The translations under genes were made by a program, and so were the position numbers. DNA of 64,000 bases, taken from Candidatus Thiodiazotropha endolucinida (GTDB lineage: Bacteria > Pseudomonadota > Gammaproteobacteria > Chromatiales > Chromatiaceae). Below the pieces are notes generated by a model. The model saw only the letters and a list, made by a program, of their open reading frames with translations, ran no database searches and was not told where the DNA came from. Below are positions 39,703-63,938 of the stretch, piece after piece. Where the stretch lies: positions 1 to 64,000 of the forward strand of contig NZ_MARB01000022.1 in NCBI RefSeq assembly GCF_001715975.1, in the 5' to 3' direction. Numbering within the stretch: the first letter of the stretch is position 1; each line of letters opens with the position of its first letter.

Positions 39703-39718
39703 TGCAATTTGCATGCCT
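39703..39718 (-). promoter_or_regulatory. sigma-54-type promoter of the mptG-mtdB-mch-fae operon
   Basis: The minus strand reads AGGCATGCAAATTGCA against TGGCACNNNNNTTGCW. GG and GC are ten bases apart as required, and TTGCA is exact; two -24 bases differ. The same AGGCATG form occurs at 59604. It lies directly upstream of the mptG start. Confidence 0.55.
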
Positions 39719-40172
39719 GCCATCCAAGTCCCGAGTGTTGTGGTCTAACTGCAAATCCGCCTACCCGACAACACTCAGCGTGTTACGCTGTAAGTCAACA
39801 GACAATTAAGCGTTCATAGAAGTAAACCTTGTCAAAGGCAAGGCTTTTTAAGGGAAATATATGCCGGCTTTTTTTACATCCGACTCACTGCAATGTTTAG
39901 TTCTATCTTAGACCTTAAATGCGCCTGAGTTGGACCAATGTGTCACCTGCCCTGCCCCAGCAGTTAACAGTTGATCCGAGTCGCCGATCAAATGGTTGAA
40001 TTCGATTTCGCCAAGGAAGCAACCTGATGTCATATGGTTATGTTTCCACCTATTCCAAAGATTGGCTTATCTATAGATCCTTATTTTTGCCCGGATCTGG
40101 TGTAACCTAATACCAACCGTGACCAAAGTTCGTGACGATTGATATAGGTAAATAAAATCAGACATTGTTCAG

Positions 40173-40188
40173 TGGCACGTTTTCTGCA
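40173..40188 (+). promoter_or_regulatory. sigma-54-type promoter of fhcBADC
   Basis: TGGCACGTTTTCTGCA: the full -24 box TGGCACG with correct spacing and a -12 box CTGCA differing from TTGCA at one base. Predicted start of transcription is about 40200, leaving about 45 nt of leader to the fhcB ATG at 40246. Confidence 0.65.
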
Positions 40189-40245
40189 CTAACTCGTAAA
40201 TCGATACATCCGAGCATCACTCACAAGCAGGGTTATCAGCGCAGC

Positions 40246-41562
40246 ATGTGGAATAATGAAATCGAACAGATGATGGACGCGGTCACCTGTCCTTGTTGTG
40301 GATTGAGTTGCGATGACCTGAAAATTGAGATGAGCGATGGGCAGCTGAAATCTATTCAGAACGGATGTCATCTGGCACGTGCCTTCTACGACACCGCCTT
40401 TCATCATACCGATCAGGACCCCATGATCGACGGCAGAGCGACCACGTTGGAAGAGGCGCTGGACTACGGCACTGAGTTATTGCGGCAGGCACGATCTCCG
40501 CTCTTCGCCGGACTGGCGACAGACGTCAATGGCATGCGTGGCATCCTTGCACTGGCTGACCGGTGTGGCGCCACCCTGGATCACCTCAACGGTGATGCCA
40601 TGTTTCGCAATCTACGTGTCGTACAGGATAACGGTTGGTTCACCACCACTTTCACCGAGGTGCGCAATCGGGCCGACCTGATCCTGTTGGTGGGCAGCCA
40701 ATGCATCGACCGCTTTCCACGACTTGTCGAACGCGTGCTGCATCCTGAAGAGAGTCTCTTCGTTGAAACCAATCAACGAAGGATTATATTGCTCGGCCCC
40801 TGGCAACAGGACGATATACCAACCGAGTTGGCACAGTTGAACCCGACGGTGATAGCAACGGATATCGAGTCATTATCAGATGCGGCGGGACTGTTACGCG
40901 GCCTCGTTGCCGACAGACCGGTCGATTCGGACCGGCTTGGAGATGATCTCGGCAATTCACTGACCGCACTTGCCGAACAACTCAAAGCTGCAAAATACAG
41001 TGTTATCTCATGGAGCGCTGCGGAACTCACCATGGCCCATGCCGAATTAGTTGTACAGAGCCTGGTGGATCTGGTTAAAGCACTCAATGCCAAGACGCGC
41101 AGCGCCGCCCTCCCGCTAGCCGGAACACAGGCGGATATCACCGCAAACCAGGTCTGTACCTGGCAGCTTGGATACCCATTGCGTACTCGGCTGCAACGCG
41201 GATATCCGGAGCATGATCCATCACTCTTCCGCTGGCAGGATCTGCTCACGAGCGGCGAGAGTGATCTGTTGTTATGGGTCTCATCGTTCTCCTCACTAGC
41301 CACGCCTCCACCTACCAAGACTCCGACCATCGTGCTTGGCCATGCCGGCATGATGTTTGAACAGCAACCATCGCTCTACATCCCCGTGGGTGTACCGGGT
41401 ATCGACCACCGGGGACATTGGTACCGCAGTGATGGTGTCTGCTCACTACCCCTCGGCAAGCTGAGAGATATCGGCCTGCCTGCGGTCAGTCTTATCGTGA
41501 ACCAACTGAATGAACGGCTGCTGCCCTTTGCAGACGAGCCTGAAAGTGCTCCCGCATGCTGA
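40246..41562 (+). CDS. fhcB: formyltransferase/hydrolase complex subunit B
   Basis: 438 residues from the ATG at 40246; earlier in-frame ATG codons overlap the promoter. It is homologous to the molybdopterin-type subunit FmdB/FwdB of formylmethanofuran dehydrogenase. In bacteria the complex hydrolyses formyl-methanofuran to formate instead. Motifs: VTCPCCGLSCDDLKI near the N-terminus, IQNGCHLARAFY, RSPLFAGLATDVNGMRG and DLILLVGSQCIDRFPRL. It overlaps fhcA by seven bases in the order BADC. Confidence 0.93.
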   Translation: MWNNEIEQMMDAVTCPCCGLSCDDLKIEMSDGQLKSIQNGCHLARAFYDTAFHHTDQDPMIDGRATTLEEALDYGTELLRQARSPLFAGLATDVNGMRGILALADRCGATLDHLNGDAMFRNLRVVQDNGWFTTTFTEVRNRADLILLVGSQCIDRFPRLVERVLHPEESLFVETNQRRIILLGPWQQDDIPTELAQLNPTVIATDIESLSDAAGLLRGLVADRPVDSDRLGDDLGNSLTALAEQLKAAKYSVISWSAAELTMAHAELVVQSLVDLVKALNAKTRSAALPLAGTQADITANQVCTWQLGYPLRTRLQRGYPEHDPSLFRWQDLLTSGESDLLLWVSSFSSLATPPPTKTPTIVLGHAGMMFEQQPSLYIPVGVPGIDHRGHWYRSDGVCSLPLGKLRDIGLPAVSLIVNQLNERLLPFADEPESAPAC

Positions 41563-43223
41563 GCAAACTCACGGGCGGCAAGCTCTACGACCCGGCCAAT
41601 GGCATCAACGGTGATACCAGGGATATCTATATCCGAGACGGTAAGATAGTCGATCCGCCGGCCGATAGCGAAATCGTCCATCGAACTTATTCATTGGATG
41701 GCAAAATCGTCATGGCCGGTGCCATTGACATGCATACCCATATAGGCGGCGGCAAGGTCAATATCGCGCGCACCATGCTGCCGGAGGATCAACGTGGAAG
41801 CGCCCGGCCGAAGACCGACCTGACCCGCTCGGGCGGCGGGCATGCCATCCCCTCCACTTTGGCAGCGGGATACCGCTACGCGGAGATGGGTTACACAAGT
41901 TGTTTCGAACCGGCCGTACTACCGGCCAATGCCCGTCAGGCCCATATGGAGATGGCCGATACCCCGATGATCGATACCGGCGGCTATGCCATGCTGGGCA
42001 ATGATGATCTGTTACTGCAGCTGATATCCGAAGGGGCCGAGCAGCAAACCCTCAATGACTACGTGGCCTGGACCCTGCACGCAGCTCAGTGTATCGGTAT
42101 CAAGGTGGTCAATCCCGGCGGCATCAATGCCTTTAAATTCAACCAACGGGCACTGGATGTGGACGATTCCCATCCCCACTACCGGATAACTCCACGCGAT
42201 ATTGTGCGCACACTGAGCCGTGCCCTGAGCGAACTGGGGGTGCCCCATCCACTGCATGTCCACGCCAGTAATCTGGGTGTACCGGGTAACTATCTGTCAA
42301 CCCTGGCAACCATGGAGGCAGCCGAAGGATTCCCCATCCACCTCACCCATATACAGTTCCATAGTTATGGTGCCGAGGGTGACCAAAAATTCTCCTCCTG
42401 CGCGGCCGAGATTGCCGAGGCCGTCAACAACCAATCCAATATCTCTATCGATGTTGGCCAGGTGATGTTCGGTCAGACGGTCACCATATCGGGTGACACC
42501 ATGGCCCAGCATGCCAACCACAACCATGCCCATCCCAATAAGTGGACCTGTATGGATATCGAGTGCGATGCGGGATGCGGTGTGGTGCCCTTTCGCTATC
42601 GCGACAAGAACTTCGTCAATGCCCTGCAGTGGGCGATAGGCCTCGAACTGTTTCTGATGGTGGACGATCCCTGGCGGATCTTTCTCACCACCGACCACCC
42701 CAACGGCGCCCCCTTCACCAGCTATCCCCACCTGATCCGGCTGTTGATGGACAGAGGCTTTCGCAACGACCTGATGGGACAGATCCATCCTGAGGCCTCG
42801 GCAGCCACTCACCTGGGCAGTCTGGAACGGGAGTATTCACTCTACGAAATCGCCATCATGACCCGGGCCGCGCCGGCAAGGATTCTGGGGTTGTCAGACC
42901 GTGGACACTTGGCGCCGGGTGCCTTGGCGGATATCGCAGTCTATCATCAGCACGAGAATCCGGAGCGGATGTTCGAGCGACCGATGCTGGTTTTCAAACA
43001 GGGAGAAGTGGTTGTTGAGGAAGGGCGGATCACTCAGCCTGTCAAAGGCGCCACTCAAGTCGTAAGGCCAGAGTACGACAAGCGTATAGAGAAACTGATA
43101 GAGCGCAGGTTCGAACGTTATCACAGCATCGGCCTCCACAACTTCGTCATCTCCGACGACGAGATGGCCGAGGGAATCGGCAGCCAGGTCAATATCCATG
43201 CCTGTAAGGGAAGCCGAACATGA
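41556..43223 (+). CDS. fhcA: formyltransferase/hydrolase complex subunit A
   Basis: 555 residues of the amidohydrolase superfamily, catalytic subunit that releases formate from formyl-methanofuran. Metal ligands: AGAIDMHTHIGGGKVNIAR (HTH at about 60), GIKVVNPGGINAFKFN (candidate carbamylated Lys), HPLHVHASNLGVPGNY, FPIHLTHIQFHSYG and LTTDHPNGAPF (Asp). FhcA is the most conserved Fhc protein, and no key residue seems missing. It overlaps fhcD by four bases (ATGA). Confidence 0.96.
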   Translation: MLSKLTGGKLYDPANGINGDTRDIYIRDGKIVDPPADSEIVHRTYSLDGKIVMAGAIDMHTHIGGGKVNIARTMLPEDQRGSARPKTDLTRSGGGHAIPSTLAAGYRYAEMGYTSCFEPAVLPANARQAHMEMADTPMIDTGGYAMLGNDDLLLQLISEGAEQQTLNDYVAWTLHAAQCIGIKVVNPGGINAFKFNQRALDVDDSHPHYRITPRDIVRTLSRALSELGVPHPLHVHASNLGVPGNYLSTLATMEAAEGFPIHLTHIQFHSYGAEGDQKFSSCAAEIAEAVNNQSNISIDVGQVMFGQTVTISGDTMAQHANHNHAHPNKWTCMDIECDAGCGVVPFRYRDKNFVNALQWAIGLELFLMVDDPWRIFLTTDHPNGAPFTSYPHLIRLLMDRGFRNDLMGQIHPEASAATHLGSLEREYSLYEIAIMTRAAPARILGLSDRGHLAPGALADIAVYHQHENPERMFERPMLVFKQGEVVVEEGRITQPVKGATQVVRPEYDKRIEKLIERRFERYHSIGLHNFVISDDEMAEGIGSQVNIHACKGSRT

Positions 43224-44116
43224 TCATCAACGGCACAGAGATCGAGGACACCTTCGCCGAGGCCTTCGGCATGAGCGCCACCCGCGTCATCATCACAGCC
43301 ATCAACCACCGCTGGGCGCTTATCGCCGGCGAAACCATGACCGGATTCGCCACATCGGTGATCGGTTGCGGTGTAGAGGCGGATATCGAAGCGGAGATCG
43401 CCCCTGATAAGACCCCCGATGGACGTCCTGGCGTGAGTGTGCTGCTTTTCGGCATGTCCGGCAAGGCACTGGCGAAGCAGCTGGAGACCCGTGTGGGCCA
43501 GTGTGTGTTGACCTGCCCCACCACCGCCCTCTTTGCCGGTATCGACGGGGAGAAGCGGATACCACTGGGTAAGAATCTGCGCTTTTTCGGTGACGGCCAC
43601 CAGATCTCCAAACAGATCGACGGCACACGCTATTGGCGCATACCGGTGATGGATGGCGAGTTCCTCTGTGAGGAGAGCGTTGCCCGGATACCTGCTGTCG
43701 GCGGCGGCAACTTCCTGGTGCTCGCCGAGACACAACAGCAGGCACTCAGCGCCTGTGAAAGGGCGATCGAGGCGATGCGCAAGCTGCCGAACGTGATCAT
43801 GCCCTTTCCCGGCGGTATCGTTCGTTCCGGCTCCAAGGTGGGATCAAAATACAAGGCCTTGATGGCCTCCACCAACGACGCTTACTGTCCCACGCTCAGG
43901 GGACTGGTCGACACCAGGCTCGGTCCCGATATCGGATCGGTGATGGAGATCGTCATCAACGGTCTGAGTGATGCCGATGTCAAATTTGCTACCCGGACCG
44001 GCATCTCGGCAGTATGCGAACTGGGTGCCGCGGCCGGAATCCGCCGTATCTCAGCCGGCAACTATGGCGGCAAGTTGGGTCAGTACCATTTCCACTTGCG
44101 TGAGGTGATGGCATGA
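43220..44116 (+). CDS. fhcD: formylmethanofuran:H4MPT formyltransferase
   Basis: 298 residues, homologous to Ftr of methanogens. It moves the formyl group from 5-formyl-H4MPT to methanofuran. Recognised blocks: NGTEIEDTFAEAFGMSATRVIITA, GETMTGFATSVIGCGVEADIE, DKTPDGRPGVSVLLFGMS, RVGQCVLTCPTTALFAG and the C-terminal GNYGGKLGQYHFHLRE. Overlaps with fhcA and fhcC (ATGA at each) suit a stoichiometric complex. Confidence 0.96.
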   Translation: MIINGTEIEDTFAEAFGMSATRVIITAINHRWALIAGETMTGFATSVIGCGVEADIEAEIAPDKTPDGRPGVSVLLFGMSGKALAKQLETRVGQCVLTCPTTALFAGIDGEKRIPLGKNLRFFGDGHQISKQIDGTRYWRIPVMDGEFLCEESVARIPAVGGGNFLVLAETQQQALSACERAIEAMRKLPNVIMPFPGGIVRSGSKVGSKYKALMASTNDAYCPTLRGLVDTRLGPDIGSVMEIVINGLSDADVKFATRTGISAVCELGAAAGIRRISAGNYGGKLGQYHFHLREVMA

Positions 44117-44925
44117 GTGCCCTGACCCTGAAGCTGAAGCACAGCCTCTCGCAACGTCTGGACATGAGTCCCTTCACCCCCGCGCATCTGGCCGGCAAAA
44201 AAGTGGGTGAGATAGCAAGCATTCCCCTATGGCTGGGAAACCGGCGGGTCGATGCCGCTGAGCTGTTCGCCATCGACGGCAAGGTAACTGATCAGATCGT
44301 TATCCAGTCGGAGAGCGACCGACTCGATGGGATCGGCGCAGGCATGACCAGTGGGAAGATCATGATCGAGGGCAAGGCCGGCGCCTATCTCGGATGCGGT
44401 ATGCGGGACGGCACCATTCAGGTGAGTGGCAATGTGGGCGTGGCTGCAGGCTGCGCCATGCAGGGAGGTCACCTGGAAATCGCCGGCAACGCGGGAGATT
44501 TCCTGGGTGGCGCCATCACAGGCGAGCGCCAGGGTATGCGCGGCGGTATCATCATTCTAAAAGGAGATGCGGGAGACAGGGCCGGCGATCTGATGCGCCG
44601 TGGGACTATCCTGATCGGAGGCAACTGTGGCGACTATTGTGTATCGCGTATGGTTGCGGGAACCATGGTGGTATTGGGTCAGTGCGGCGAGCAGGCCGGA
44701 ATGGCTATGCGCCGCGGTACATTGATTTTGACAAGGCCACCCGTTTCGATGCCGGCCACCTTCAACGATAACGGTCGACACCATCTTAATTTCCTGACAC
44801 TGCTCATCCAAAGCTTCAAAGATCAACCACCCTTTTCAAATCTGGCGGAACGGGGCAATCAGGTCCATCGTTGGCTCGGCGATCTAAGCTGCGGTGGTCA
44901 GGGAGAGATACTGATCTGTTATTAA
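44113..44925 (+). CDS. fhcC: formyltransferase/hydrolase complex subunit C
   Basis: 270 residues with the right-handed beta-helix repeats (GxxGxxxG) shared with the C-terminal domain of glutamate synthase: GMTSGKIMIEGKAGAYLGCGMRDGTIQV, GGHLEIAGNAGDFLGGAITG and MRRGTILIGGNCGDYCVSRM. It is a structural subunit of the Fhc complex. Final gene of fhcBADC; no terminator hairpin was recognised after it. Confidence 0.95.
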   Translation: MSALTLKLKHSLSQRLDMSPFTPAHLAGKKVGEIASIPLWLGNRRVDAAELFAIDGKVTDQIVIQSESDRLDGIGAGMTSGKIMIEGKAGAYLGCGMRDGTIQVSGNVGVAAGCAMQGGHLEIAGNAGDFLGGAITGERQGMRGGIIILKGDAGDRAGDLMRRGTILIGGNCGDYCVSRMVAGTMVVLGQCGEQAGMAMRRGTLILTRPPVSMPATFNDNGRHHLNFLTLLIQSFKDQPPFSNLAERGNQVHRWLGDLSCGGQGEILICY

Positions 44926-45350
44926 ACCGGCACCATTACAAGCTATGTTCAGGACTCCAAGAGCGGTAAAGAACAGTTCTCGCAATTGAAATTTACTATT
45001 GTCTCAATAGGTAATCCAAATCTGACACACATTCTACACCTGGCCATCTTATTTTCTGCTTAATCATTTTATTAAGCTGCTCATGAAGTTATACGGGAAG
45101 GATGTGTTACTTCCTTAACGACAATCATCCAGTGTCACCGATCCGGTACAGGTCGTGTGTAACATATGGCCCTATCCCGAGCCGTGTCGGGAAAAATTCC
45201 CAATGTTTTTTTGCCATTATTCCTAGCAAGCCCCTATGCGTGGTGAACCCCATAAATAGAGACTACTTGCAGTTGAACGTATGCATGTTATCTGCTGACA
45301 AAGCTCATGCATTTTCTGAGACTAGCGAAAATCAACAGGAGCGATACCTC
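44926..45350. other. intergenic upstream of pqqA
   Basis: No protein gene besides spurious short frames. It contains the leader and promoter of pqqA, but I find no sigma-54 match. A TTGCAG...TATCTG pair around 45267-45294 could be a sigma-70 promoter (weak). A lone GTGTCAC arm lies near 45132. Confidence 0.4.
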
Positions 45351-45425
45351 ATGAATTGGTCTACACCTTCCTATCAAGATCTACGTTTCGGTTTTGAGAT
45401 CAATCTTTACATCAACAACCGATAA
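45351..45425 (+). CDS. pqqA: PQQ precursor peptide
   Basis: A 24-residue peptide, MNWSTPSYQDLRFGFEINLY plus four residues. Glu16 and Tyr20 are in the ExxxY spacing that PqqE/PqqD cross-link to build pyrroloquinoline quinone. AGGAG lies nine bases upstream. Position directly before pqqB and the typical MxWxxPxxxDLRxGFE pattern make the call firm despite its size. Confidence 0.96.
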   Translation: MNWSTPSYQDLRFGFEINLYINNR

Positions 45426-45435
45426 GCTGTAATTG

Positions 45436-45466
45436 CCGGAACCACCTTTCATGCCGGTGGTTCCGG
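45436..45466 (+). promoter_or_regulatory. stem-loop between pqqA and pqqB
   Basis: CCGGAACCACC (45436-45446) and GGTGGTTCCGG (45456-45466) are perfectly complementary over 11 bp with a nine-base loop and no following T-run. Such a hairpin would stabilise or partly terminate the pqqA message, giving more precursor peptide than enzymes. Confidence 0.8.
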
Positions 45467-45485
45467 ACATAACCATACCTCATTC

Positions 45486-46400
45486 ATGCTGATACATATT
45501 TTGGGTTCCGGCGCGGGTGGCGGATTTCCGCAATGGAACTGTAATTGCCATAACTGCCGGGGAGTACGAACCGGAACCATCAAAGCGGCAGCCCGCACAC
45601 AATCCTCCATTGCAATCAGCGCCAACGGTGAGGATTGGGTACTCTTCAATGCGTCGCCGGATATCCGAGCCCAGTTGGAATCCTTTCCAGTCTTACAACC
45701 GGGCAGAACCATTCGCGATACGGCAATACGAGCAATTCTGTTGGTGGATGCACAGATCGATCATACCACCGGCTTGTTGCTACTGCGTGAGCACACGGCA
45801 CCCTGGGATATCTATTGCACCCGGGCCGTACATGACGATTTGACCAGCGGCTACCCGATATTCAACATTCTTGGCCACTTCAGAGGGGTCAACTGGCACG
45901 AGATTCTGACCGACGAGTCGAATTTTTTCATTCCGGGCATCGAAGGTTTGGTGTTCACTGCGGTACCGCTGAAGAGTGAAGCACCCCCCTACTCGCCTCA
46001 CCGCCATAACACAGTTCCAGGAGACAACATCGGCGTACGGGTTGAAAACACCGCAAGCGGAAAAAACCTGTTTTACGCACCCGGGCTGGGTTCCATGGAG
46101 CCCCACATTCTGCCCTATATGCAAGAAGCCGACTGCTTACTGGTTGATGGGACTTTATGGCAGAACGACGAGATGATCGAGGCGGGTATCAGCAACAAGC
46201 TCGGCAGTGAAATGGGGCATCTCGATCAATCGGGCAAGGGCGGCATCATCGATATTATGAGCGACCTTGGCAAACCGAGAAAGATACTTATTCATATCAA
46301 CAACACCAATCCCATCCTCGTGGATGATTCACCCGAACGGCAAACGTTGAACAAGGCCGGTGTCGAGGTATCTCACGATGGCATGCAGATCAAACTATAA
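45486..46400 (+). CDS. pqqB: PQQ biosynthesis protein PqqB
   Basis: 304 residues of the metallo-beta-lactamase fold, thought to hydroxylate the cross-linked PqqA-derived intermediate. [50 protein letters not shown] and [19 protein letters not shown] are diagnostic. Full length and collinear with pqqA-E. Confidence 0.96.
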
Positions 46401-46412
46401 ACGGGATCAGCT

Positions 46413-47144: not shown

Positions 47145-47147
47145 CCT

Positions 47148-48555: not shown

Positions 48556-48566
48556 CAGAAAGAATA

Positions 48567-48861: not shown

Positions 48862-48875
48862 GTGTTCATCTGAAT

Positions 48876-50010: not shown

Positions 50011-50028
50011 GTGTCACAGCAGTGACAC
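50011..50028. promoter_or_regulatory. dyad operator-like site upstream of xoxF
   Basis: GTGTCACAGCAGTGACAC: two perfect 7-bp arms around AGCA. It is the shape of a dimeric activator site, possibly the enhancer for the sigma-54 promoter 500 bp downstream. The distance is long but tolerable for enhancers. Confidence 0.5.
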
Positions 50029-50526: not shown

Positions 50527-50542
50527 TGGCACACAAGTTGCT
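50527..50542 (+). promoter_or_regulatory. sigma-54 promoter of xoxF
   Basis: TGGCACACAAGTTGCT matches the -24/-12 consensus TGGCACNNNNNTTGCW at every conserved base. It points to xoxF (ATG at 50745), with predicted transcription start near 50554. Confidence 0.75.
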
Positions 50543-50744
50543 CTTTTGTGATTGTCGCTCTGAAAGACTGCCTGTGATCGTGCGACAGGATCGTTCTAAA
50601 TGTACCAAATGTGAGGAGTCTATTGATAGCGAGGGAGAAGCTAAACCGACAAATTTCGATTTTATCCGGTCTGTATCCGGTCTCTAAATCGAATAATTTT
50701 ACCTTGTAGAGGCAGTCCCACAAAAAAACTCGAGGATACATACT

Positions 50745-52547
50745 ATGGTAAAAGCAAAGCGCAAAGTTCTGGCGATATGCTTCACTGCCTCTGCAATGCT
50801 CAGCGCTGCAGGTGGAGTGACGGCAAATTCAGAACTACTGAAAATGCAAAACAACCCAAACGACTGGGTAATGCCTAACGGCAATTATGCAAGTACCCGC
50901 TACAGCGAACTGGACCAAATCAACACCAGTAACGTTAAGGATCTGAGGGTTGCCTGGACCTTCTCCACCGGCGTTCTGCGTGGTCATGAGGGCGGCCCCC
51001 TGGTACTCGGGGATGTCATGTATATCCACAGCCCGTTTCCCAATAAGGTCTTCGCCCTTGATCTGAGTAATGACGGTAGAATTATTTGGAAGTATGAGCC
51101 GAGACAGGACACCAGCGTTATTCCGGTCATGTGTTGCGACACCGTCAACCGTGGTCTGGCCTATGGCGACGGTAAGATCATACTTTCACAGGCCGACACC
51201 ACGCTGGTGGCCCTGGATGCAAAGACCGGCAAGAAAATCTGGTCCGTGGTAAACGGCGACCCGTCCAAGGGTGAGACCTCCACAGCGGCTCCCATGGTGG
51301 TAAAAGACAAAGTCTTTATCGGTATCTCAGGTGGTGAGTTCGGTGTGCGCGGTTCCATGACTGCCTACAATCTCAAAGATGGCAAACTGGCATGGCGTGC
51401 TTACTCAATGGGACCGGATAGCGATACCCTTCTCGATCCTCAGAAGACTACCCATCTCGGTAAGCCGGTAGGAAAAGACTCCGGTATCAATACCTGGAAG
51501 GGTGACCAGTGGAAGATCGGAGGCGGCGCCACTTGGGGCTGGTATTCCTATGATCCGGATCTGAACCTGATGTATTACGGCTCAGGCAACCCCAGCACAT
51601 GGAATCCGGTTCAGCGTCCCGGCGATAACCGCTGGTCGATGACCATCTTCGCGCGTGACGTGGACACTGGCATTGCCAAGTGGGTCTACCAGATGACACC
51701 GCATGACGAGTGGGACTATGACGGCATCAATGAAATGATCCTGGTCGACAAAGAGATCAAGGGTAAGATGCGCAAGGCCCTGGTCCACTTCGATCGCAAT
51801 GGTTTCGGCTATACCATGGATCGTGCTAACGGCGAACTGTTGGTTGCCGAGAAATTCGATCCTGCTGTTAACTGGGCGACCCATATCGACATGGACACCG
51901 GTCGTCCACAGGTCGTAGCCAAGTACTCCACCCATCAGAACGGTGAAGACGTCAACTCCACCGGTATCTGCCCGGCGGCTTTGGGCACGAAGGATCAGCA
52001 GCCCGCTAGTTACTCGCCGCGCACCAAGCTGTTCTATGTGCCGACCAACCATGTCTGCATGGACTACGAGCCGTTCCAGGTTTCGTACACCGCGGGTCAA
52101 CCCTATGTGGGCGCAACCCTCTCCATGTACCCGGCACCCGGTAGCGATCATCTGGGTAACTTCATTGCCTGGGATGCCGACAAGGGCAAGATTGTGTGGT
52201 CCAACCCCGAGCCCTTCTCCGTATGGAGCGGTGCACTCTCCACGGCTGGTGACGTGGTCTTCTACGGCACCTTGGAGGGTTATCTGAAAGCAGTCGATGC
52301 CAAGTCGGGTAAAGAGCTGTACAAGTTCAAGACTCCTTCCGGCATCATCGGTAACGTCAATACCTACATGCATAACGGCAAGCAATATATCGCTGTCCTC
52401 TCCGGACTCGGTGGCTGGGCCGGTATCGGCATGGCAGCAGGATTGACCGATCCGACAGCCGGCTTGGGTGCTGTGGGTGCCTATGCATCCCTCAGCGACT
52501 ATACCCAACTGGGCGGCACGCTGACTGTATTCGAACTGCCGAACTAA
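50745..52547 (+). CDS. xoxF: lanthanide-dependent methanol dehydrogenase XoxF
   Basis: A 600-residue periplasmic PQQ quinoprotein with a signal peptide (cleavage near GGVTAN). It oxidises methanol, passing electrons to cytochrome XoxG. The adjacent-Cys disulfide is C130-C131 ([10 protein letters not shown]). The metal site reads [10 protein letters not shown], with Asp324 and Asp326; the extra Asp326 (Ala in calcium MxaF) is the marker of lanthanide enzymes. Overall it resembles the XoxF5 type. GAGGA lies nine bases before the ATG. No mxaF or mxaI is present, so methanol oxidation would need rare-earth metals. Confidence 0.97.
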
Positions 52548-52572
52548 GGGATCGATATCCCCTGCCAGAACA

Positions 52573-53128: not shown

Positions 53129-53138
53129 ACAGAGGTTC

Positions 53139-54705: not shown

Positions 54706-54706
54706 G

Positions 54707-54728
54707 TTATTAGTGTTAACAGGCCCTA
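54707..54728. repeat. dispersed GTTAAC element, single end
   Basis: TTAGTGTTAACAGGCCCTA (54710-54728) in the convergent gap. Its CTA supplies the TAG stop of the minus-strand gene ending at 54726. Confidence 0.8.
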
Positions 54729-55340: not shown

Positions 55341-55386
55341 CTTTGAAAACTCCTCGTATGGCCGGATGGATTAGTGAAAACTGGTC

Positions 55387-56927: not shown

Positions 56928-57925
56928 GGACGAACCACAACCCCCCAGGGTAGACGCCCCACCCTGATCGACTTTCTCACCTTCAACCGGTCGACATCTA
57001 TGACCGAGATATCGTTACTCACCCCGTTGGTGGTAAAGATGCGCTTTTCATCCGGCGAGAAATCGAGGTTCCAAACCCGCTGCCCTACCAGAAGATATTT
57101 TTCCACCTCGAAAGAGGAGGTATCTATCACAGCCACCCTTGCAGCCGGTCCCAGGGCGACAAATGCCAGCTTGCCATCCTTGCTGATTTTTATGCCTACG
57201 GGCTGGATCGATTCTTTGTGGATACCGGGGATCTCGAAGCCGATCTTCTTGACGATCTTGCGACTCGCCGTATCGATCACGCTCACTGTGCCACCGATCT
57301 CCGATGAAACCCATACCTGCTTGCCATCATGGGTGAACTGAGCCACGCGTGGCCGCTGATCGACCAGTACGTTATCTTCCACCTTCAACGTCTCAAGGTT
57401 GATGAAGTGGGCCATGTTGGTGGTTTCCGATGTATTGACCAGCCACTTTCCGTCGGGGCTGATTCCCATCCCCTCCGGTTCCACGCCCACCTGGATCTCC
57501 GTCACCTTCTCCCGCTTCTGTATGTCGACCATGGTGACCATGTTGTCGTCCTCGTTGGCGGCATACAGATATTTACCCTGTGGCCCGAGTACCAGCAGTT
57601 CCGGATCGGGACCGGACGGCAATATATGGGTAACCTTGAGGCTTTCCAGATCCAGCACTTCAATGTGATCGGCATCGCTGGTGCAAACGTAGAGGGTTTT
57701 GCCATCGTTGCTGAGGGCAATACCCCGTGGACGCTCGCCTACCTTAACCGTCTCCAGGACCTTGAGACTCTCTCCATCGATTATCGTGATTGTGTTGTCC
57801 TTCTCGCTGCTAACGTAAATTGTGTAGGCCTGCGCCCCGCTGCTGATTATCACGAAGATGGTAAACACCAATGCATACAATGAGCGGCGGACGCCTGGAT
57901 TGCAGCGGGAAAAAGAAAAGATCAT
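56924..57925 (-). CDS. PQQ-dependent catabolism-associated beta-propeller protein
   Basis: 333 residues. A signal peptide (LVFTIFVIISSGAQA) precedes about seven YVTN-type blades such as YTIYVSSEKDNTITIIDGESLKVLETVKVG and RIFTTNGVSNDISVIDVDRLKVRKSIRVG. This is the YVTN propeller that accompanies the ABC genes of quinoprotein alcohol systems. It is periplasmic, perhaps binding dehydrogenase or substrate. A four-base overlap links it to the ATPase gene. Confidence 0.92.
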   Translation of the reverse strand: MIFSFSRCNPGVRRSLYALVFTIFVIISSGAQAYTIYVSSEKDNTITIIDGESLKVLETVKVGERPRGIALSNDGKTLYVCTSDADHIEVLDLESLKVTHILPSGPDPELLVLGPQGKYLYAANEDDNMVTMVDIQKREKVTEIQVGVEPEGMGISPDGKWLVNTSETTNMAHFINLETLKVEDNVLVDQRPRVAQFTHDGKQVWVSSEIGGTVSVIDTASRKIVKKIGFEIPGIHKESIQPVGIKISKDGKLAFVALGPAARVAVIDTSSFEVEKYLLVGQRVWNLDFSPDEKRIFTTNGVSNDISVIDVDRLKVRKSIRVGRLPWGVVVRP

Positions 57926-57992
57926 TGACTACTCCTCCGTTTTTATCGCTTACGAGTTACAGCCGGGCCGTAAATTATCTATCAGGGGCTAT

Positions 57993-58016
57993 TAGGGCCT
58001 GTTAACACTAATCCAT
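57993..58016. repeat. dispersed GTTAAC element, single end
   Basis: TTAGGGCCTGTTAACACTAA followed by TCCA, in the spacer between the binding-protein gene and the propeller gene of the same operon. Confidence 0.8.
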
Positions 58017-58030
58017 GACTAGCATGGGGC

Positions 58031-59257
58031 CTACTTACCGCATTTACTCTCCGGACGATCGTAGCCAAGGGTATCCAGGGTGGAAAACTGATGTAGAAAA
58101 CCCTTCTGCGGCGAGACGGATATCATCAACCTTGGAGAGGTAATCAACAGCGGTTGGCGCAACTGACCGTTCCAATCCCGATAGGTCACCGGTCTGCCCT
58201 TAAAAGCGGCCAGATTGAATTCATCACTGAGGATGAAGGCTTTCAGTTTGTCCGCCTGTTTACCGGCAGTGCGTGTCGCTGCTTCGCCGATACTGCGTAC
58301 GGCCACCCAGGCTGAAAAATCGCGATCGGTCATCCAGCGGCCATTTTTTTCCTGGTAGCGCCGTTGAAACTGGGTTGCTCCCCACTGTTCATGTACGCCG
58401 CTCCAGGCAGCCGGGGAGAGCCCGTGTGAACCGCCAACCGGCCGCGGTAGATAGGTACGGTAGTTTAAAAACTCACCGAACTCATCCCGTTCATCAGCCA
58501 CGATCAGGATGTCGTAATCCCCCACCTGGGTGAACGCATTCACTTCTTCCTGTTCTCGGGTGTGTCCCGAATCGGTACGTCTTGCGCCGGGTTCGAAGGT
58601 CCATACTTTCTCTTCGACAATCTTGTGGCCATATCGTTTGGCCGCCCGCTTGAGGGCGTCCGCATAGGCCTTGTCCTGCGGATAACGGCCCACGACGAGA
58701 AACCACTCGTTCCAGCGTTTCCAGGTCAGATACTGGGCCAAGGCATCCGCCAGCATAGCCCGGCTGGGGATGGTATGCAGCAGGTTGGCTCGGCATTCAT
58801 GGGTTCTCAGTTCATCGTCCCTGGCGCCGATATTAAAAAGCAGGCTATCCTTCGCTTCGGGCATATCCGCGATTACAATCAACTTGTCCGCGGGCAGATT
58901 GAGGAGGAACAGCCTGGTGCCCTGCCGATGCAATTCCAGGAAGGCCTGATTCAGATTCTGTTCAGGCTTGACCTTCACCGACGTGAGTTGAAATGACTGT
59001 CCGGTAAATTGCCCGGTGGTGTTGTTGTCGCTTATGCCCTGCTCGGCCCCCGACTGGCCGGTGTCGTCAATAACCGGCCTCAACAATGACAACGGTATGT
59101 GTTTCTCCTGTTCCAATCCCAGCAGAGCGATGGATATATCGAGTTTGTCTGCAGCACAGGCGATGCCGAAGCAATACAACCCGCTGAAAATAATCATGAG
59201 GCCAACAGAAAATCGATAGAGAGGCTTTTTCTTATAGTATGGATCCAATCTACTCAA
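58031..59257 (-). CDS. ABC substrate-binding protein, PQQ-dependent alcohol dehydrogenase system
   Basis: 408 residues from a TTG at 59257 with GGAG five bases upstream. A signal/anchor (LYRFSVGLMIIFSGLYCFGIACA) is followed by a Leu/Ile/Val-binding-protein-like fold: KLDISIALLGLEQEKHIPLSLLRPV, LLNLPADKLIVIADMPEAKDSLLFNIGARDDELR and YPQDKAYADALKRAAKRYGHKIVEE. This is the binding-protein family of the PQQ-linked ABC system. It opens the operon running to 54726, and a sigma-54-like site lies 48 bp upstream of the start. Confidence 0.9.
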   Translation of the reverse strand: MSRLDPYYKKKPLYRFSVGLMIIFSGLYCFGIACAADKLDISIALLGLEQEKHIPLSLLRPVIDDTGQSGAEQGISDNNTTGQFTGQSFQLTSVKVKPEQNLNQAFLELHRQGTRLFLLNLPADKLIVIADMPEAKDSLLFNIGARDDELRTHECRANLLHTIPSRAMLADALAQYLTWKRWNEWFLVVGRYPQDKAYADALKRAAKRYGHKIVEEKVWTFEPGARRTDSGHTREQEEVNAFTQVGDYDILIVADERDEFGEFLNYRTYLPRPVGGSHGLSPAAWSGVHEQWGATQFQRRYQEKNGRWMTDRDFSAWVAVRSIGEAATRTAGKQADKLKAFILSDEFNLAAFKGRPVTYRDWNGQLRQPLLITSPRLMISVSPQKGFLHQFSTLDTLGYDRPESKCGK

Positions 59258-59304
59258 AACAGCTCCAGAAACAGGGTCGGGATTAAAAAGTCATGGAGTA
59301 CTTT

Positions 59305-59320
59305 TGCAAGTTCCATACCA
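59305..59320 (-). promoter_or_regulatory. sigma-54-like promoter of the PQQ-ABC operon
   Basis: The minus strand reads TGGTATGGAACTTGCA: TGG, A, TTGCA and spacing fit TGGCACNNNNNTTGCW; two -24 bases are changed. It is 48 bp from the start codon at 59257. Confidence 0.5.
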
Positions 59321-59394
59321 TTGGACGGAGTTCCAGTTGTCGATGGTCCGTAATCAGAATCGGGCTACGCTCACCTGCCAGGCTGAATCAATCA

Positions 59395-59410
59395 GTGTCA
59401 ACGCTGACAC
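59395..59410. promoter_or_regulatory. dyad operator-like site between divergent operons
   Basis: GTGTCAACGCTGACAC, 6-bp arms around ACGC. It shares the GTGTCA/TGACAC arms of the xoxF dyad, with a spacer two bases shorter. Confidence 0.45.
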
Positions 59411-59603
59411 ACTTTATGTTAGCGGATCTCTCGCACAGAACAGGACACGGCCTCCGACGCACTATCCAGATCTATTCATCTTAGCCCAATTTAAGATTGC
59501 CGGATAATACGTTTTATCCACATATTTCGTACGGTTCACAGGCCTCAGGCAAACTGTGTATCACTTGGTACAACCATCCTGCTCATTTATTTAACAGTTG
59601 AAC

Positions 59604-59619
59604 AGGCATGATATTTGCT
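59604..59619 (+). promoter_or_regulatory. sigma-54-like promoter of the small-protein operon
   Basis: AGGCATGATATTTGCT: correct spacing and exact TTGCT. The -24 box AGGCATG is identical to that at mptG. Confidence 0.5.
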
Positions 59620-59757
59620 CGATAGGTTACAGCCATTCGACAGGGGCAATCGGTTCTTTCGCAATAACAGAAGAGATCTTAAAACAGCTTGAAATCAGCA
59701 CCAGCGGCAAATGTCTCTTTGGCCTGGTGAATAATCAAAATACAGGAGGAACAGACT

Positions 59758-60042
59758 ATGAATATCTCAACACATCCCGAGGATTCCGTCCTAAAACGTC
59801 ATTTCGATGCAACTGTCGAAATGAAGCGCCAAATCTGGCTTCAAACACCGCCGACGGATTCGATCCTGCACCGCCACGCCATAGGCATGGGCAATCATCC
59901 AGCTGCCCGGTCAACTCCCAGGGCAAAAGATACCTCATCACCTGCATTTAACAGATCATCTTCGACTGCAACGGCACGACAGGCAAGTGATGAAAATAAA
60001 GGAATCTTATCCTGGCTGTTCGGCCTGTTCCGCAGTGCATAA
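59758..60042 (+). CDS. small unknown protein of the methanol cluster
   Basis: 94 residues with an excellent ribosome-binding site (AGGAGG eight bases before ATG) and a sigma-54-like promoter upstream, so I believe it is translated. It is hydrophilic and Ser/Thr/Ala-rich in the middle, with no signal peptide. The C-terminus ENKGILSWLFGLFRSA is a short hydrophobic, amphipathic tail that could bind a membrane or partner. No family recognised. Confidence 0.6.
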   Translation: MNISTHPEDSVLKRHFDATVEMKRQIWLQTPPTDSILHRHAIGMGNHPAARSTPRAKDTSSPAFNRSSSTATARQASDENKGILSWLFGLFRSA

Positions 60043-60147
60043 AAAATAGACAGGGCATTCCTGATTCAGGTCACAGGTTGTCGATTCGCCTATCTCCGAT
60101 AAGTGGATATGCACGGCGTCGGCAAACATCTTTTAGGAGTTTGATAT

Positions 60148-60837
60148 ATGCTCAAACGCAGCATCAGTATTGTTATCCTGTCAGCGTTGCTGTTCACATC
60201 CACAGTAGCGGTTGCAACCAAGGTATTACCGCCACCGAAACTCAATGACGCACAGAAGCTGGTTTTTTTCAAAGACCACCTGAAAGGCGTTCCGAAAGGC
60301 AGTCGAATCGATTACGGTTTAAAAAGTGTGACCAAGGATGCCGACAGTTTTTCGGATAATATCGAGATCAAGGTAATCGACGTAGTGGCCGAAGGTAAAC
60401 GGGATCTGGAATTCAATTTCCTGACCGGTTCACATCACATCGACTTCAGTCCCGCCAAGGCATACACTGGCAACCCGGTTATCATTCACTTTCTGGAGCG
60501 GGATATTTCCATAATGGCTAAAAATACCGGTGGCAATATCGGTTTTTTTCGTAATCGGATTCGTGATTCGTTTGCTAAGCCCATGGTAGTGCGTGAGATA
60601 GATTTCAAACTCAATGGTAAGGCGATGAGCGGCACAGAAATCGTAATCACTCCCTTTGTTGCCGATCCCTATGCAGAGAATTTCAAACTCTATGTCAATA
60701 AACGCTATGAGTTCATATTTTCTGACCAGGTTCCAGGGGGTGTATATCGTATCCACACCAAGGTACCCAGCGACAGTGGAGATGGTGTGCTCATCGATGA
60801 AGAGATGATATTCCGGCAAATCACTCCGGCAATTTAG
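60148..60837 (+). CDS. periplasmic protein of unknown function in the methanol cluster
   Basis: 229 residues. A signal peptide (MLKRSISIVILSALLFTSTVAVA) is followed by a mature part that appears mostly beta: LVFFKDHLKGVPKGSRIDYGLKSV, IEIKVIDVVAEGKRDLEFNFLTG, NPVIIHFLERDISIMAKNTGGNIGFFRNRIRDSF. It has no Cys, so it is not a haem or disulfide protein. AGGAG precedes the ATG. Position between a sigma-54-like promoter and the SoxYZ-like carrier suggests a role beside the periplasmic quinoprotein relay. Confidence 0.7.
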   Translation: MLKRSISIVILSALLFTSTVAVATKVLPPPKLNDAQKLVFFKDHLKGVPKGSRIDYGLKSVTKDADSFSDNIEIKVIDVVAEGKRDLEFNFLTGSHHIDFSPAKAYTGNPVIIHFLERDISIMAKNTGGNIGFFRNRIRDSFAKPMVVREIDFKLNGKAMSGTEIVITPFVADPYAENFKLYVNKRYEFIFSDQVPGGVYRIHTKVPSDSGDGVLIDEEMIFRQITPAI

Positions 60838-60849
60838 GTGCATTCAACC

Positions 60850-61221
60850 ATGTATAGATCAAAGTTTTCATTATTCCTAATCTGTTTTGGCCTGGCGTGT
60901 TGCTCAATGGCAAACGCAGAAGAGTGTGACGATACTGCCGGCAGTAACGACTATCCGACCTCCGCCAGGGTCGACTACGTGATTGGTTGCATGGCGTCAA
61001 ACGGCCAGACACATGAGATGATGCAGAAGTGCTCATGCAGCATCGATCTCATCGCCAAGGCGATCCCCTATGAAGAGTACGTGCACATCTCGACGCTATT
61101 GAGCCTGCAGCAGATGGCTGCGGCTGGAAGAAATGCCATGTATAAAACCTCTACCTGGTCGCAAAAAGCGGTGGCCAAACTGAGAGAGGTGCAGGCCGAC
61201 TCCACCTTGCACTGTTTCTGA
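60850..61221 (+). CDS. small Cys-rich periplasmic protein
   Basis: 123 residues from the ATG at 60850 (AGGTG nine bases upstream; a GTG at 60838 is also open). A signal peptide (MYRSKFSLFLICFGLACCSMANA) precedes ECDDTAG, VIGCMASNG, KCSCS and a C-terminal HCF, five Cys likely paired in disulfides. RVDYVIGCMASNGQTHEMMQKCSCSIDLIAKAI resembles short proteins seen beside quinoprotein relay genes, but I cannot name the family. It ends two bases from the convergent SoxYZ-like gene. Confidence 0.65.
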   Translation: MYRSKFSLFLICFGLACCSMANAEECDDTAGSNDYPTSARVDYVIGCMASNGQTHEMMQKCSCSIDLIAKAIPYEEYVHISTLLSLQQMAAAGRNAMYKTSTWSQKAVAKLREVQADSTLHCF

Positions 61222-61223
61222 AA

Positions 61224-62072
61224 TCAGCCTTTGCTGTTTTCCGTCAGGTCTATGCTATGGGAGAAAGATCTCCCCTTGGAATCCTTTACATGAACCTCCA
61301 GAATCCCTGTCTCTTCCGGTGTGAAACCGAATCGAATACTGGGGTCCTCGCTGATGGAGATATCGGTGTCAGCGGTAAACACCTCTTCGCCATTGAAGGT
61401 AACCTCGATTGTCCTGATAAAATCCGCGGGTATGTAAAAGCGGGAAACCTGATCGAACTGCAGACCTGAATTGTTCGGGTGTTTTATCAACAATTGGGTC
61501 GCGACAAGGTCTCCATGATTGAACTCCTCAGGCAAACGAAACTTGATTTTTCCCAACTGAGCCGCGGCTGCAGCCGGATCCTTGAGTGAAGGCGCAGAAC
61601 ACCCTCCTGACGCCTTGACATAATTGTTCACCATGTACAACTTGCCATCACTGAGTTCGGCGATTGCACGCAGATCGGTATAGGCATTTATACGCACCCG
61701 GGTCGACAGGGTTTCCCAACTGTGCTTTCCGGGAAAACGGAAAACCGCCGCTACCGGCGAAGGATTGTTGTCGATCACCAAATAGAGGCTCTTTATGTAA
61801 TGATCGGGTGTCTGTTCGATCTTGGAATCGATGGCAATGGGAACGATCGCCGCATCCATTGCCCTGGCTGGGGACTCCAATCCCAGGATCTCCTCACCGC
61901 TAAGGATGTTTTTATCGCCAAACAGAGAGGTCTTTATCTGAAACCAGCGATTTCCATCATCATTTGCCCATGCATTACCGGTTGCAAGACACATGCACAA
62001 CGTGATCGTTGCGAATTTGAGCCAGATATTCCATATCCCGCCATTTTGTTTCATCGTTGTGACAGCTGACAT
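61224..62072 (-). CDS. quinoprotein dehydrogenase-associated SoxYZ-like carrier
   Basis: 282 residues from the ATG at 62072 (GAGGA eight bases upstream). After a signal peptide comes a SoxY-like domain ending in KASGGCSAPSLKDP, with C158 equivalent to the substrate-carrying Cys of SoxY. A SoxZ-like Ig domain completes the C-terminus (SRFYIPADFIRTIEVTFNGEEVFTAD...DSKGRSFSHSIDL). The fused carrier is known from quinoprotein relay systems next to PQQ or metal-dependent dehydrogenases. It hints that a sulfur-carrier chemistry was recruited to methanol oxidation. Confidence 0.9.
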   Translation of the reverse strand: MSAVTTMKQNGGIWNIWLKFATITLCMCLATGNAWANDDGNRWFQIKTSLFGDKNILSGEEILGLESPARAMDAAIVPIAIDSKIEQTPDHYIKSLYLVIDNNPSPVAAVFRFPGKHSWETLSTRVRINAYTDLRAIAELSDGKLYMVNNYVKASGGCSAPSLKDPAAAAAQLGKIKFRLPEEFNHGDLVATQLLIKHPNNSGLQFDQVSRFYIPADFIRTIEVTFNGEEVFTADTDISISEDPSIRFGFTPEETGILEVHVKDSKGRSFSHSIDLTENSKG

Positions 62073-62165
62073 AGCATTTGTCCTCGTATGAGAAAAGGAA
62101 ATTGCCGGCACTCGTAAATCATTGCCATACCTTCCAGGGCCTGTGGACATTCATGCAATCGACCC

Positions 62166-62488
62166 TAGGGCCTGTTAACACTAATCCAATACGCCCTGCT
62201 GGGGCTGTTTTCGTGCCCAGCAAGGCAGAATGAGCGTAGTGTAGTTATTCTACATGAGCGAATGATAACGCCGCTGGGGGCGAAAACAGCCCCAGCCCTT
62301 CGGGTTGCGCCCCGAAGGAAGTGCCCTTGGGGTATGCCTGAAAAAGCGCCACTCGGCGTTGCTCGTCGTTCATTTGGAATAACCAAACCTCTCTCCTCGC
62401 GCCCCGAAGGAAGTGCCCTTGGGGTGCGTCTTGATTGGCACTTTTTCAGGCACAACAGGGTGCATTGGATTAGTGTTAACAGGCCCTA
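62166..62488. mobile_element. MITE-like element with 36-bp terminal inverted repeats
   Basis: A non-coding unit bounded by TA. The left end (TAGGGCCTGTTAACACTAAT..., 62166-62201) and the right end (62453-62488) are inverted copies over about 36 bp with three mismatches. Inside are an inverted pair GGGGCTGTTTTCG (62201-62213) / CGAAAACAGCCCC (62281-62293) and a 27-bp direct repeat (62307-62333, 62399-62425). There is no transposase. TA at both borders suits movement by a Tc1/IS630-type enzyme. Its ends match the single elements scattered elsewhere in the window. Confidence 0.85.
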
Positions 62489-62670
62489 AGTTAGATCAGT
62501 TATTCAAACAAGCGTTCCAGCCATTGAAAATGGCTTGTCTTTCAACACACTCCACTATCCTGCAGCAAAGGTTCAATCTGTATAGACAAGTTCCCCTGCC
62601 GCATCTACCACAAATAATCAATAACATTAACCAAACACTTAACCACTGGAAAATTTGTGGTATATCCCGC

Positions 62671-63738
62671 CTACTCCCACTCCAATTCAGCAAACACAGC
62701 AGTCACATTCCTGCCGTGGAACTCATTGAACAACAGCCAGTTGTCCTTTTCCTCCAGGCCCACGCTTTCCACCGCCTGGGTGATGGTTCCACCCTTTTTA
62801 ATGATCGCTCGGATATCTGCCGCGATAATCTCCAGATAACGTTGCTGAGCAGCCAATGCACTCTGCCATTGGGTTGTAACAGACCCATGCCCCGGGACGA
62901 TACGTTTCACCTTTCCACATTGCCCCCTAGCCTCATTCTCAACGGCTGTTGAACGATTCTTCGCATCATCTGAAGAAACGGCAACGCAGGCTTGTCTGCT
63001 GAGCTTTTGGATGACTTTCAACCATCCCAACAGGCTGCCGTCCACTACCGGCAGACGCTCTACAAAAAGCAGATCCGAGAGCCACAATGTCCCGGTTTTG
63101 TCATCATAGACACTTAAATCATTATTCGTATGTGCCGTCGGATAGGCATGCAAATGGAGAGATCTGCCACCAAGGTCCAGTCGCTTCACCTGATCCACGC
63201 TGACACTCTGGGACGGAAACACTATTTGTGTGCCTTCCGCCATGTCCCCGAGAATCTGTTTCATCCGATTCAGATAGGTTGACTGCCGCCTCGCCAGGGC
63301 ATCTCCCAGGTGTTCATGGCCGATGAATACAGGATCGTCCTGTCTGAAGGCAGCAGCACCGAGGGTATGATCGGGATGCATATGGGTAAGGACCACATAC
63401 CTGATCGGCAGTTGGGTGATTTCACGGATCATCTTGCGTAACGCCAATCCTTCCCGGTAACTGCTGCCGGTATCGATCACCGCCACACGCTTGCTACCCA
63501 CAATAAATCCTGTATTGGCGATATGCCCATGATTGTGTGTGGAAAACTCTTCTTGAATCCCCGGCCAGACGAAGATGCCTGGGGCGATTTCCCTGGCATC
63601 GAGAGTCCGAGCCTGAAGTCCGTCCATGCTCAGAAACAGCACGACACCGGCAGTTACGACAAGAAGACACTGGATAACCTGTAGACTGAGTATCTCCTGT
63701 GTCATACAGGCCTGTCTTAAACTGGAGATCACTCGCAT
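62671..63738 (-). CDS. quinoprotein relay system zinc metallohydrolase (MBL fold)
   Basis: 355 residues. An N-terminal hydrophobic segment (VIQCLLVVTAGVVLFLSM) exports or anchors it. The metallo-beta-lactamase core has T118-HMHPDH (zinc ligands H119, H121, D123, H124), AYPTAHTNNDLSVYDDKTGTLWLSDLLF and KRIVPGHGSVTTQW. It matches the SoxH-like hydrolases that travel with the SoxYZ-like carrier and PQQ dehydrogenases. The substrate is unproven, perhaps a thiol adduct on the carrier. A short spacer holding the MITE separates it from the carrier gene. Confidence 0.88.
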   Translation of the reverse strand: MRVISSLRQACMTQEILSLQVIQCLLVVTAGVVLFLSMDGLQARTLDAREIAPGIFVWPGIQEEFSTHNHGHIANTGFIVGSKRVAVIDTGSSYREGLALRKMIREITQLPIRYVVLTHMHPDHTLGAAAFRQDDPVFIGHEHLGDALARRQSTYLNRMKQILGDMAEGTQIVFPSQSVSVDQVKRLDLGGRSLHLHAYPTAHTNNDLSVYDDKTGTLWLSDLLFVERLPVVDGSLLGWLKVIQKLSRQACVAVSSDDAKNRSTAVENEARGQCGKVKRIVPGHGSVTTQWQSALAAQQRYLEIIAADIRAIIKKGGTITQAVESVGLEEKDNWLLFNEFHGRNVTAVFAELEWE

Positions 63739-63774
63739 CTAAACCTCTTTGTCAATCGCACATCGTTAAGCCTA

Positions 63775-63790
63775 TGCATATTTGCGGCCA
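63775..63790 (-). promoter_or_regulatory. very weak sigma-54-like site
   Basis: The minus strand reads TGGCCGCAAATATGCA, with correct GG/GC spacing but three conserved bases changed. It is 37 bp upstream of the metallohydrolase gene. Confidence 0.2.
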
Positions 63791-63833
63791 ACACTGAATA
63801 ATTCGACATAACAAAGCCGATAGGGAAATGATT

Positions 63834-63849
63834 GTGTTGCTGAAGACAC
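63834..63849. promoter_or_regulatory. possible dyad upstream of the right-edge sigma-54 promoter
   Basis: GTGTTGCTGAAGACAC: GTGT/ACAC outer arms with the same 16-bp frame as the dyad at 59395, about 75 bp before the sigma-54 site. Confidence 0.3.
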
Positions 63850-63922
63850 AGATACTGCTCAATGTGCGAGAAAACTGGTGCACTGATCAGTCGACAACAG
63901 GCTCGTGCACCGCACTGGACAG

Positions 63923-63938
63923 TGGCACATGATTTGCA
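63923..63938 (+). promoter_or_regulatory. sigma-54 promoter for a gene beyond the right edge
   Basis: TGGCACATGATTTGCA matches the -24/-12 consensus at every conserved base. Predicted start is near 63950. GAAGGGA at the very end of the window may be the ribosome-binding site of the next gene. Confidence 0.7.

Follow-up and report, generated by a model that had tools for sequence, protein, structure and literature searches.

Candidatus Thiodiazotropha endolucinida carries, on one genomic island, the genes that take methanol to CO2, and this locus raises the question of whether its separate operons are switched on together, and by what. The window analysed here comprises the first 64,000 bases of the 73,136-base contig NZ_MARB01000022.1 (C22 below), from a genome of 4.49 Mb. 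To our knowledge, little is known of the control of xoxF and of the tetrahydromethanopterin (H4MPT) formaldehyde pathway outside a few model methylotrophs. Sequence comparisons make it likely that the genes leading from methanol to CO2, most of them in the window, are controlled as a single sigma-54 regulon by an activator of their own, and similar wiring appears to exist in several other bacterial families. A single sigma-54 regulon over the methanol module had been proposed from the window alone; it is now supported by the conservation of its -24/-12 sites in relatives and by the association of these sites with an activator gene. The sites, and xoxF itself, are as follows:

50527..50541, plus strand: -24/-12 site of the xoxF operon, TGGCACACAAGTTGC, exact consensus
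63923..63937, plus strand: -24/-12 site of fdsGB-fdhA, TGGCACATGATTTGC, exact consensus
40173..40187, plus strand: -24/-12 site of fhcBADC, TGGCACGTTTTCTGC, one mismatch
39704..39718, minus strand: -24/-12 site of the mptG operon, AGGCATGCAAATTGC, two mismatches
59306..59320, minus strand: -24/-12 site of the pyrroloquinoline quinone (PQQ)-linked ATP-binding cassette (ABC) operon, TGGTATGGAACTTGC, two mismatches
59604..59618, plus strand: -24/-12 site of the mxaD-like operon (the "small-protein" promoter), AGGCATGATATTTGC, two mismatches
25700..25714, minus strand: weaker -24/-12 site of a PTPS/DHPS-like operon, TGGATCCAATCTTGC
26758..26772, minus strand: -24/-12 site of a DUF6647-like gene (26157-26579), TGGCATGTGTTATGC
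C22:72310, plus strand, beyond the window: -24/-12 site of dmrB
50745..52547, plus strand: xoxF, PQQ methanol dehydrogenase (TIGR03075, E 1.2e-237)

The first six sites had been named in the original prediction, and all of them are present with correct spacing ahead of real operons, including the two exact matches at 50527 and 63923; they show the GG and GC at fixed spacing and the TGGCAC-N5-TTGC context of sigma-54 promoters. The genome has one copy of rpoN (PF04552, E 7e-70). The mptG operon reads mptG-mtdB-ATPgrasp-mch-mptN-fae on the minus strand, divergently from fhcBADC; the mtdB-type dehydrogenase has no specific NCBIfam match, and its name comes from the original prediction and from published work on the genus (PMC6712303). 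The xoxF operon consists of xoxF, a cytochrome c gene, xoxJ and a CXXCW gene, and the PQQ-ABC operon begins at 58031-59257 and continues on the minus strand. The gene expected, unseen, behind the perfect site at the right edge proved to be the fdsGB-fdhA operon (C22:64000-68446), identified by domain matches as an NAD-linked formate dehydrogenase, the final step to CO2 in the methanol route. Three conserved sites, at 25700, 26758 (both minus strand) and C22:72310 (plus strand), had been missed. Control had also been thought selective: no site scoring at least 9.0 precedes the mfnD-F-pabB-mfnE operon in a scan of the contig with a graded score, whose weights are our own and derive from the sigma-54 consensus, but the PTPS/DHPS and dmrB genes do have sites.

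Conservation in sister species, counted here with the window's own genome included, is near complete for all six sites. That of xoxF is found in 12/12 genomes, with its ten key positions identical in 10/10, plus TGGCACATAAGTTGC in genome G046 and TGGCACGGTTGCTGC in G042. A GGTAY-type site precedes the PQQ-ABC operon in 11/11 (8/8 in the alignment, at a shifted place in G046), and the fhcB site occurs in 10/10, namely all eight Thiodiazotropha-type genomes (six aligned, two shifted) and, as TGGCCCGGCTYTTGC, G003 and G042. GGCAT-N5-TTGC precedes mptG in 8/8 Thiodiazotropha-type genomes. The mxaD-like site is present in 9 of the 11 genomes examined and was not found in G042 and G046, and the fds site in 9/10 (8/8 aligned, plus TGGCACGCTAGTTGC in G046), with none before the distant fds homologue of G049 (33% identity). 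As for the additional sites, the PTPS/DHPS-like one occurs in all six genomes with a readable stretch (scores 8.0-8.3), and in other families PTPS has a site of at least 9.0 upstream in 5/7; the DUF6647-like one occurs in 6/6 (9.1-9.4), and that of dmrB in four Thiodiazotropha-type genomes. The DUF6647-like gene encodes 140 amino acids, 86-91% conserved, with a Pfam match just below cut-off. For xoxF and fds, no second offset of the alignment equals the ten key columns in conservation (1/288 and 1/225). Equally conserved offsets number 6/542 for mptG, 3/415 for PQQ-ABC and 6/415 for mxaD, partly within candidate enhancers, and 40/542 for fhcB, owing to mis-alignment of two genomes.

A sigma-54 activator gene had been sought near 64 kb, and one is present at C22:70132-72090, on the same island and starting 6 kb beyond the window edge. 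Its product carries GAF (PF01590), PAS (PF08448), AAA+ (PF00158, E 8.2e-67) and Fis helix-turn-helix (PF02954, E 1.6e-9) domains as well as GAFTGA and Walker A motifs, and residues 40-296 match DhaR (PDB 4lrx, E 5.4e-9); it is thus an AcoR/DhaR-type sigma-54 activator with an N-terminal GAF and PAS sensory part. The closest named relatives come from symbionts of the lucinid clam Ctena orbiculata and from Candidatus Thiodiazotropha, with 98% identity to L058. In a tree holding 30 of the 34 proteins tried, its group is supported (98/95) and comprises 21 rows, of which 17 are labelled as coming from mch-bearing genomes; the AcoR-type genes that accompany a second PQQ dehydrogenase belong, with others, to the sister group. 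This second PQQ alcohol dehydrogenase (L132 8720, G000 C1:262720) has a sigma-54-like site of its own and an AcoR-type activator gene nearby but no GTGTCA-type half-site within 300 nt, and a TGGCC-type site was present in 6 of the 12 such loci scanned.

The activator and mch tend to occur together. In a class-wide sample of 369 genomes, 47 of which carry mch, the gene was found in 12 of the 13 in which the activator search scored at least 672 bits, a threshold chosen after the list was viewed, versus 35/356 others (Fisher 5.6e-11); at a looser cut-off (E 1e-130), 14/22 activator genomes carry it. In six of the 12 high-scoring genomes with mch, the two genes share a contig and are no more than about 34 kb apart. 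Likewise, all three mch genomes in a family sample of 57 carry a close activator relative.

Sites were then compared between 13 activator-bearing genomes outside Thiodiazotropha (11 from the class sample, with G003 and G042 from the family) and 29 genomes having mch and no close activator relative. Twelve of the former had mptG/fhc windows (G376 had none). The 29 controls belong to 35 mch genomes without a close activator match, and 23 of them had mptG/fhcB/fhcD windows; G206 and G263, with a distant activator match, were scored apart and showed sites in 0/25 windows, and G250, G351, G380 and G428 stood outside the control set. Excluded were G378 (mch fragment below cut-off), G000, and G422, G046 and G049 (no mch). 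A site of at least 9.0 was present in 23/165 upstream windows of H4MPT and methanofuran genes with the activator versus 2/254 without (2.3e-8). The G+C content of the two sets (0.63 and 0.50) does not explain this difference, because shuffles predict 2.55 and 3.20 windows, respectively. Antisense matches numbered 20/165 in the activator set, all in mptG, fhcB and fhcD windows, as expected of divergent promoters, and two in the control set. On either strand, sites around mptG/fhc occurred in 12/12 activator genomes versus 1/23 without, or by family in 8/8 (the window's own included) versus 1/15; all 12 distant genomes with mptG have the mptG-side site, and 10 also have the divergent one. By this comparison, the occurrence of sites goes with that of a single activator from family to family.

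Several of these promoter regions share a further motif, GTGTCAC, which we consider a candidate enhancer half-site for the activator. In the window it was located as follows:

39938..39970: conserved block separating the divergently oriented promoters of mptG and fhc, with GTGTCAC at 39940 as candidate half-site
50011..50028: candidate enhancer upstream of xoxF, GTGTCACAGCAGTGACAC
59395..59410: candidate enhancer common to the PQQ-ABC and mxaD-like operons, GTGTCAACGCTGACAC

Within the first block, GTGTCAC and TGCCCCAG are invariant in 8/8. In 14 representatives picked from 20 sequences for comparing half-sites across families, TGTCAC/GTGACA was the commonest hexamer of the mptG-fhc intergenic region, occurring in 12 where 1.52 were expected (none above 9 in 20 shuffles); outside Thiodiazotropha it mostly lies 64-86 nt from the mptG element. 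TGTCAC was found in 10/12 mptG windows with the activator versus 2/23 without, and the corresponding figures are 4/10 versus 2/17 for fhcB and 7/11 versus 2/15 for fhcD. Upstream of xoxF, GTGTCAC-N4-GTGACAC occurs in 12/12 genomes with 0-2 mismatches of 14, at about -500 or about -260. In the window it stands at -516, and its sole other genome match at up to one mismatch sits inside a long reading frame. The PQQ-ABC/mxaD palindrome, GTGTCA-N4-TGACAC, is one of two exact matches in the genome, and it is the only palindrome that a dyad search across all promoters found; PQQ-ABC regions have the half-site in 11/11 genomes and both arms in 10. The only half-site near fds, at -224 from its site, is inside the neighbouring gene. 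A related sequence, GTGTCACGTGTGACAC (L117, G000 C3:166473-166488), stands by eye upstream of a TonB-dependent receptor gene and may mark a further target, with no -24/-12 site seen by eye.

Taken together, these elements suggest how the regulon might work. RpoN-polymerase would wait in closed complexes at the -24/-12 promoters of mptG/mch/fae, fhc, xoxF, PQQ-ABC, mxaD-like and fds operons and of parts of H4MPT synthesis, an occupancy suggested by the conserved sequence; the linked activator would bind the GTGTCAC half-sites and, on receiving a one-carbon (C1)-related signal at its GAF-PAS part, open these promoters. More tentatively, and with somewhat less than an even chance in our estimation, the system may be an old, dedicated master switch for H4MPT-linked C1 oxidation in the window's class, turning on the entire route from methanol to CO2 through sigma-54 and GTGTCAC enhancers once its activator senses either an intermediate of C1 metabolism or a protein of the pathway. 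In either case, the outcome is one activator gene, one promoter set and one DNA motif, all directly testable, and the activator together with GTGTCAC sites could mark the regulon in other genomes.

Known AcoR/DhaR-type activators resemble the linked one in their GAF, PAS, AAA+ and Fis helix-turn-helix domains and GAFTGA motif, although the latter sits with methanol/H4MPT genes and not with those for acetoin or dihydroxyacetone. MmoR, of the soluble methane monooxygenase (sMMO) of methanotrophs, is likewise a sigma-54 activator adjoining a C1 operon, whose promoter is given as YTGGCACGrNNNTTGCW (PMC5874634); however, MmoR acts on methane monooxygenase, and the accessible part of that source does not describe xoxF or H4MPT genes as sigma-54-controlled. 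Escherichia coli FhlA is another GAF-bearing sigma-54 activator, of formate metabolism (PMC5874634), but it has two GAF domains, binds formate and targets formate hydrogen lyase. For Thiodiazotropha, the accessible text of PMC6712303 and PMC12172469 reports a methanol cluster with the same genes and their co-expression, and describes no promoter mechanism; one figure legend of PMC6712303 names a "MoxX" regulator. XoxF has been reported in the genus (PMC11171427). A literature search, in the portions of text it returned, gave no description of xoxF or bacterial H4MPT genes being under sigma-54, and the same holds for the accessible parts of PMC5748707 and PMC12403871.

Published field data agree in part with joint control. 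In metatranscriptomes of two field-sampled Thiodiazotropha species, mxaD, fdhA, MJ1427 (mptG), xoxG and mch reached the top ranks in each species during the non-upwelling season alone, and mtd also appears in the non-upwelling table (PMC12172469); mxaD changed strongly, from 104 to 1,801 and from 142 to 2,337 transcripts per million (Table 1 of the same source), and fdhA and xoxG changed less than mptG. This joint rise of several methanol genes fits one regulon, which offers a possible reason for it in lucinid symbionts, but it is not proof, as season alters many things.

A number of observations weigh against a single regulon or limit the evidence for it. The rarity of the sites had been offered as evidence and, although the sites are real and the quoted expectation of about 0.12 exact matches is correct if all four bases are equally frequent, the statistics carry less weight than was suggested: the window has 86 matches at up to two mismatches versus 71.75 +/- 8.9 expected (7/100 shuffles as high), and the whole genome has 13 exact matches versus 10 for a reversed control pattern. 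Exact-match counting was dropped as evidence, since counts in window and genome are near chance. With the graded score, 15 sites of at least 9.0 were found on the contig. Intergenic DNA, 17% of the sequence, holds seven of these (binomial p 0.008), and eight were scored as coding, the 63923 site only through an antisense reading frame. Coding sites, whose density had been put forward as a refuting test, do therefore occur at this score on the contig, and genome-wide searches with the exact pattern stood in for a weight matrix; because sites are also found in coding DNA, sequence alone cannot carry the regulon claim. Among relatives, G049, G422 and G046 gave no mch match (G046 and G049 carry the activator), G049 gave no xoxF match, xoxF lies far from the activator in G042, and the dmrB site is absent in G058. 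Because the two genome sets of the comparison come from different families, common descent and the effect of the activator are only incompletely separated. In this genome, no half-site precedes fds (63739-63922), dmrB, PTPS, the DUF6647-like gene or the activator itself, and the half-site offset varies (10, 12 or about 24). As for expression, methanol dehydrogenase was among the highest transcripts in both seasons, xoxG hardly rose in one species, and the fdhA meant is unspecified in the available text (PMC12172469); methanol cluster transcripts were low in C. orbiculata gills (PMC6712303).

The alternative that survives best, though we regard it as improbable, is that two or more activators share the work, the linked one serving the H4MPT, xoxF and PQQ genes and another serving fds and dmrB. 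The lack of intergenic GTGTCAC half-sites at these last two here would accord with it, as would the second PQQ dehydrogenase with its own AcoR-type gene and site; on the other side, fds sits in the same island, and in several other genomes fds or PTPS/dmrB sites adjoin the activator.

Decidedly less probable is that a general activator, NtrC or NifA, drives these sigma-54 promoters, the response being to nitrogen and not to C1 compounds. The genome has 24 PF00158 matches, 18 of them strong, and nif-type genes with exact sites. Seven of the 13 exact genome matches precede operons (three are within long reading frames and three ambiguous), namely nifV, an iscA-like/nifU pair, nifH, a TAT-signal protein perhaps of formate dehydrogenase, a tupA-like gene, xoxF and fds, all named by eye save the last two. 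The NifA site is TGT-N10-ACA, which is present at the three nif-type promoters, where no GTGTCA-type half-site lies within 250 nt. Within the same distance it is found at fds in 5/7, PQQ-ABC in 7/11, mxaD in 7/9, mptG in 2/8 and fhcB in 1/10, but GTGTCAN4TGACAC at PQQ-ABC/mxaD can itself read as TGT-N10-ACA, the motif is absent from xoxF (0/12) and dmrB (0/8), and site presence tracks one specific activator. A GTGTCA-type half-site was likewise lacking within 300 nt of exaA, the tupA-like gene and the other formate dehydrogenase-like promoter, so that these may answer to other activators. Two of these exact sites deserve mention in themselves: that at G000 C25:8267 precedes a tungstate-transport-like gene with an activator gene about 0.8 kb off, and that at G000 C19:21605 precedes the TAT-signal protein, which may belong to a membrane formate dehydrogenase.

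Finally, the reading in which conserved intergenic DNA matches the pattern by chance, or the sites are pieces of other elements, is largely refuted and very improbable, since the near-chance raw counts, the coding sites and the equally conserved offsets of fhcB and mptG are set against the unique offsets of xoxF and fds and the family-level association of sites with the activator.

The site at 59604 had been assigned to a small-protein operon. The site is present, but it is the promoter of an mxaD-like/beta-propeller operon that has lost its first two genes in this genome. In 9/9 other genomes, 1.9-2.4 kb holding two reading frames separate the PQQ-ABC start from the small gene; in G057, the one assigned by Pfam, these are an SRPBCC (mxaD-like) and a beta-propeller gene. 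The same stretch measures only 501 bases in the window genome, with the deletion, shown against G057, near 59666. Apart from a match to the leader, a search for an mxaD-like copy elsewhere in the genome gave nothing, and the promoter has been retained despite the loss.

The xoxF leader (50553-50744) contains TGTCGC...GCGACA and GACTGCCT/AGGCAGTC, invariant in six aligned leaders and near the ribosome site, which raised the possibility of a structured leader RNA. None of 14 predicted pairs shows a compensatory change in these six sequences, the G061 type breaks the second pairing with a mismatch, and Rfam gave nothing for window positions 33000-64000.

No methane monooxygenase was found among the neighbouring proteins scanned, some reading frames remaining unscanned and no genome-wide mmo search having been made. 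Past fds, C22 continues with folP, the activator gene and the gene for a DmrB-like flavoprotein. Within the methanol island, the window also encodes a fused SoxYZ (61224-62150), a type called SoxYZ-S4 in PMC11237559.

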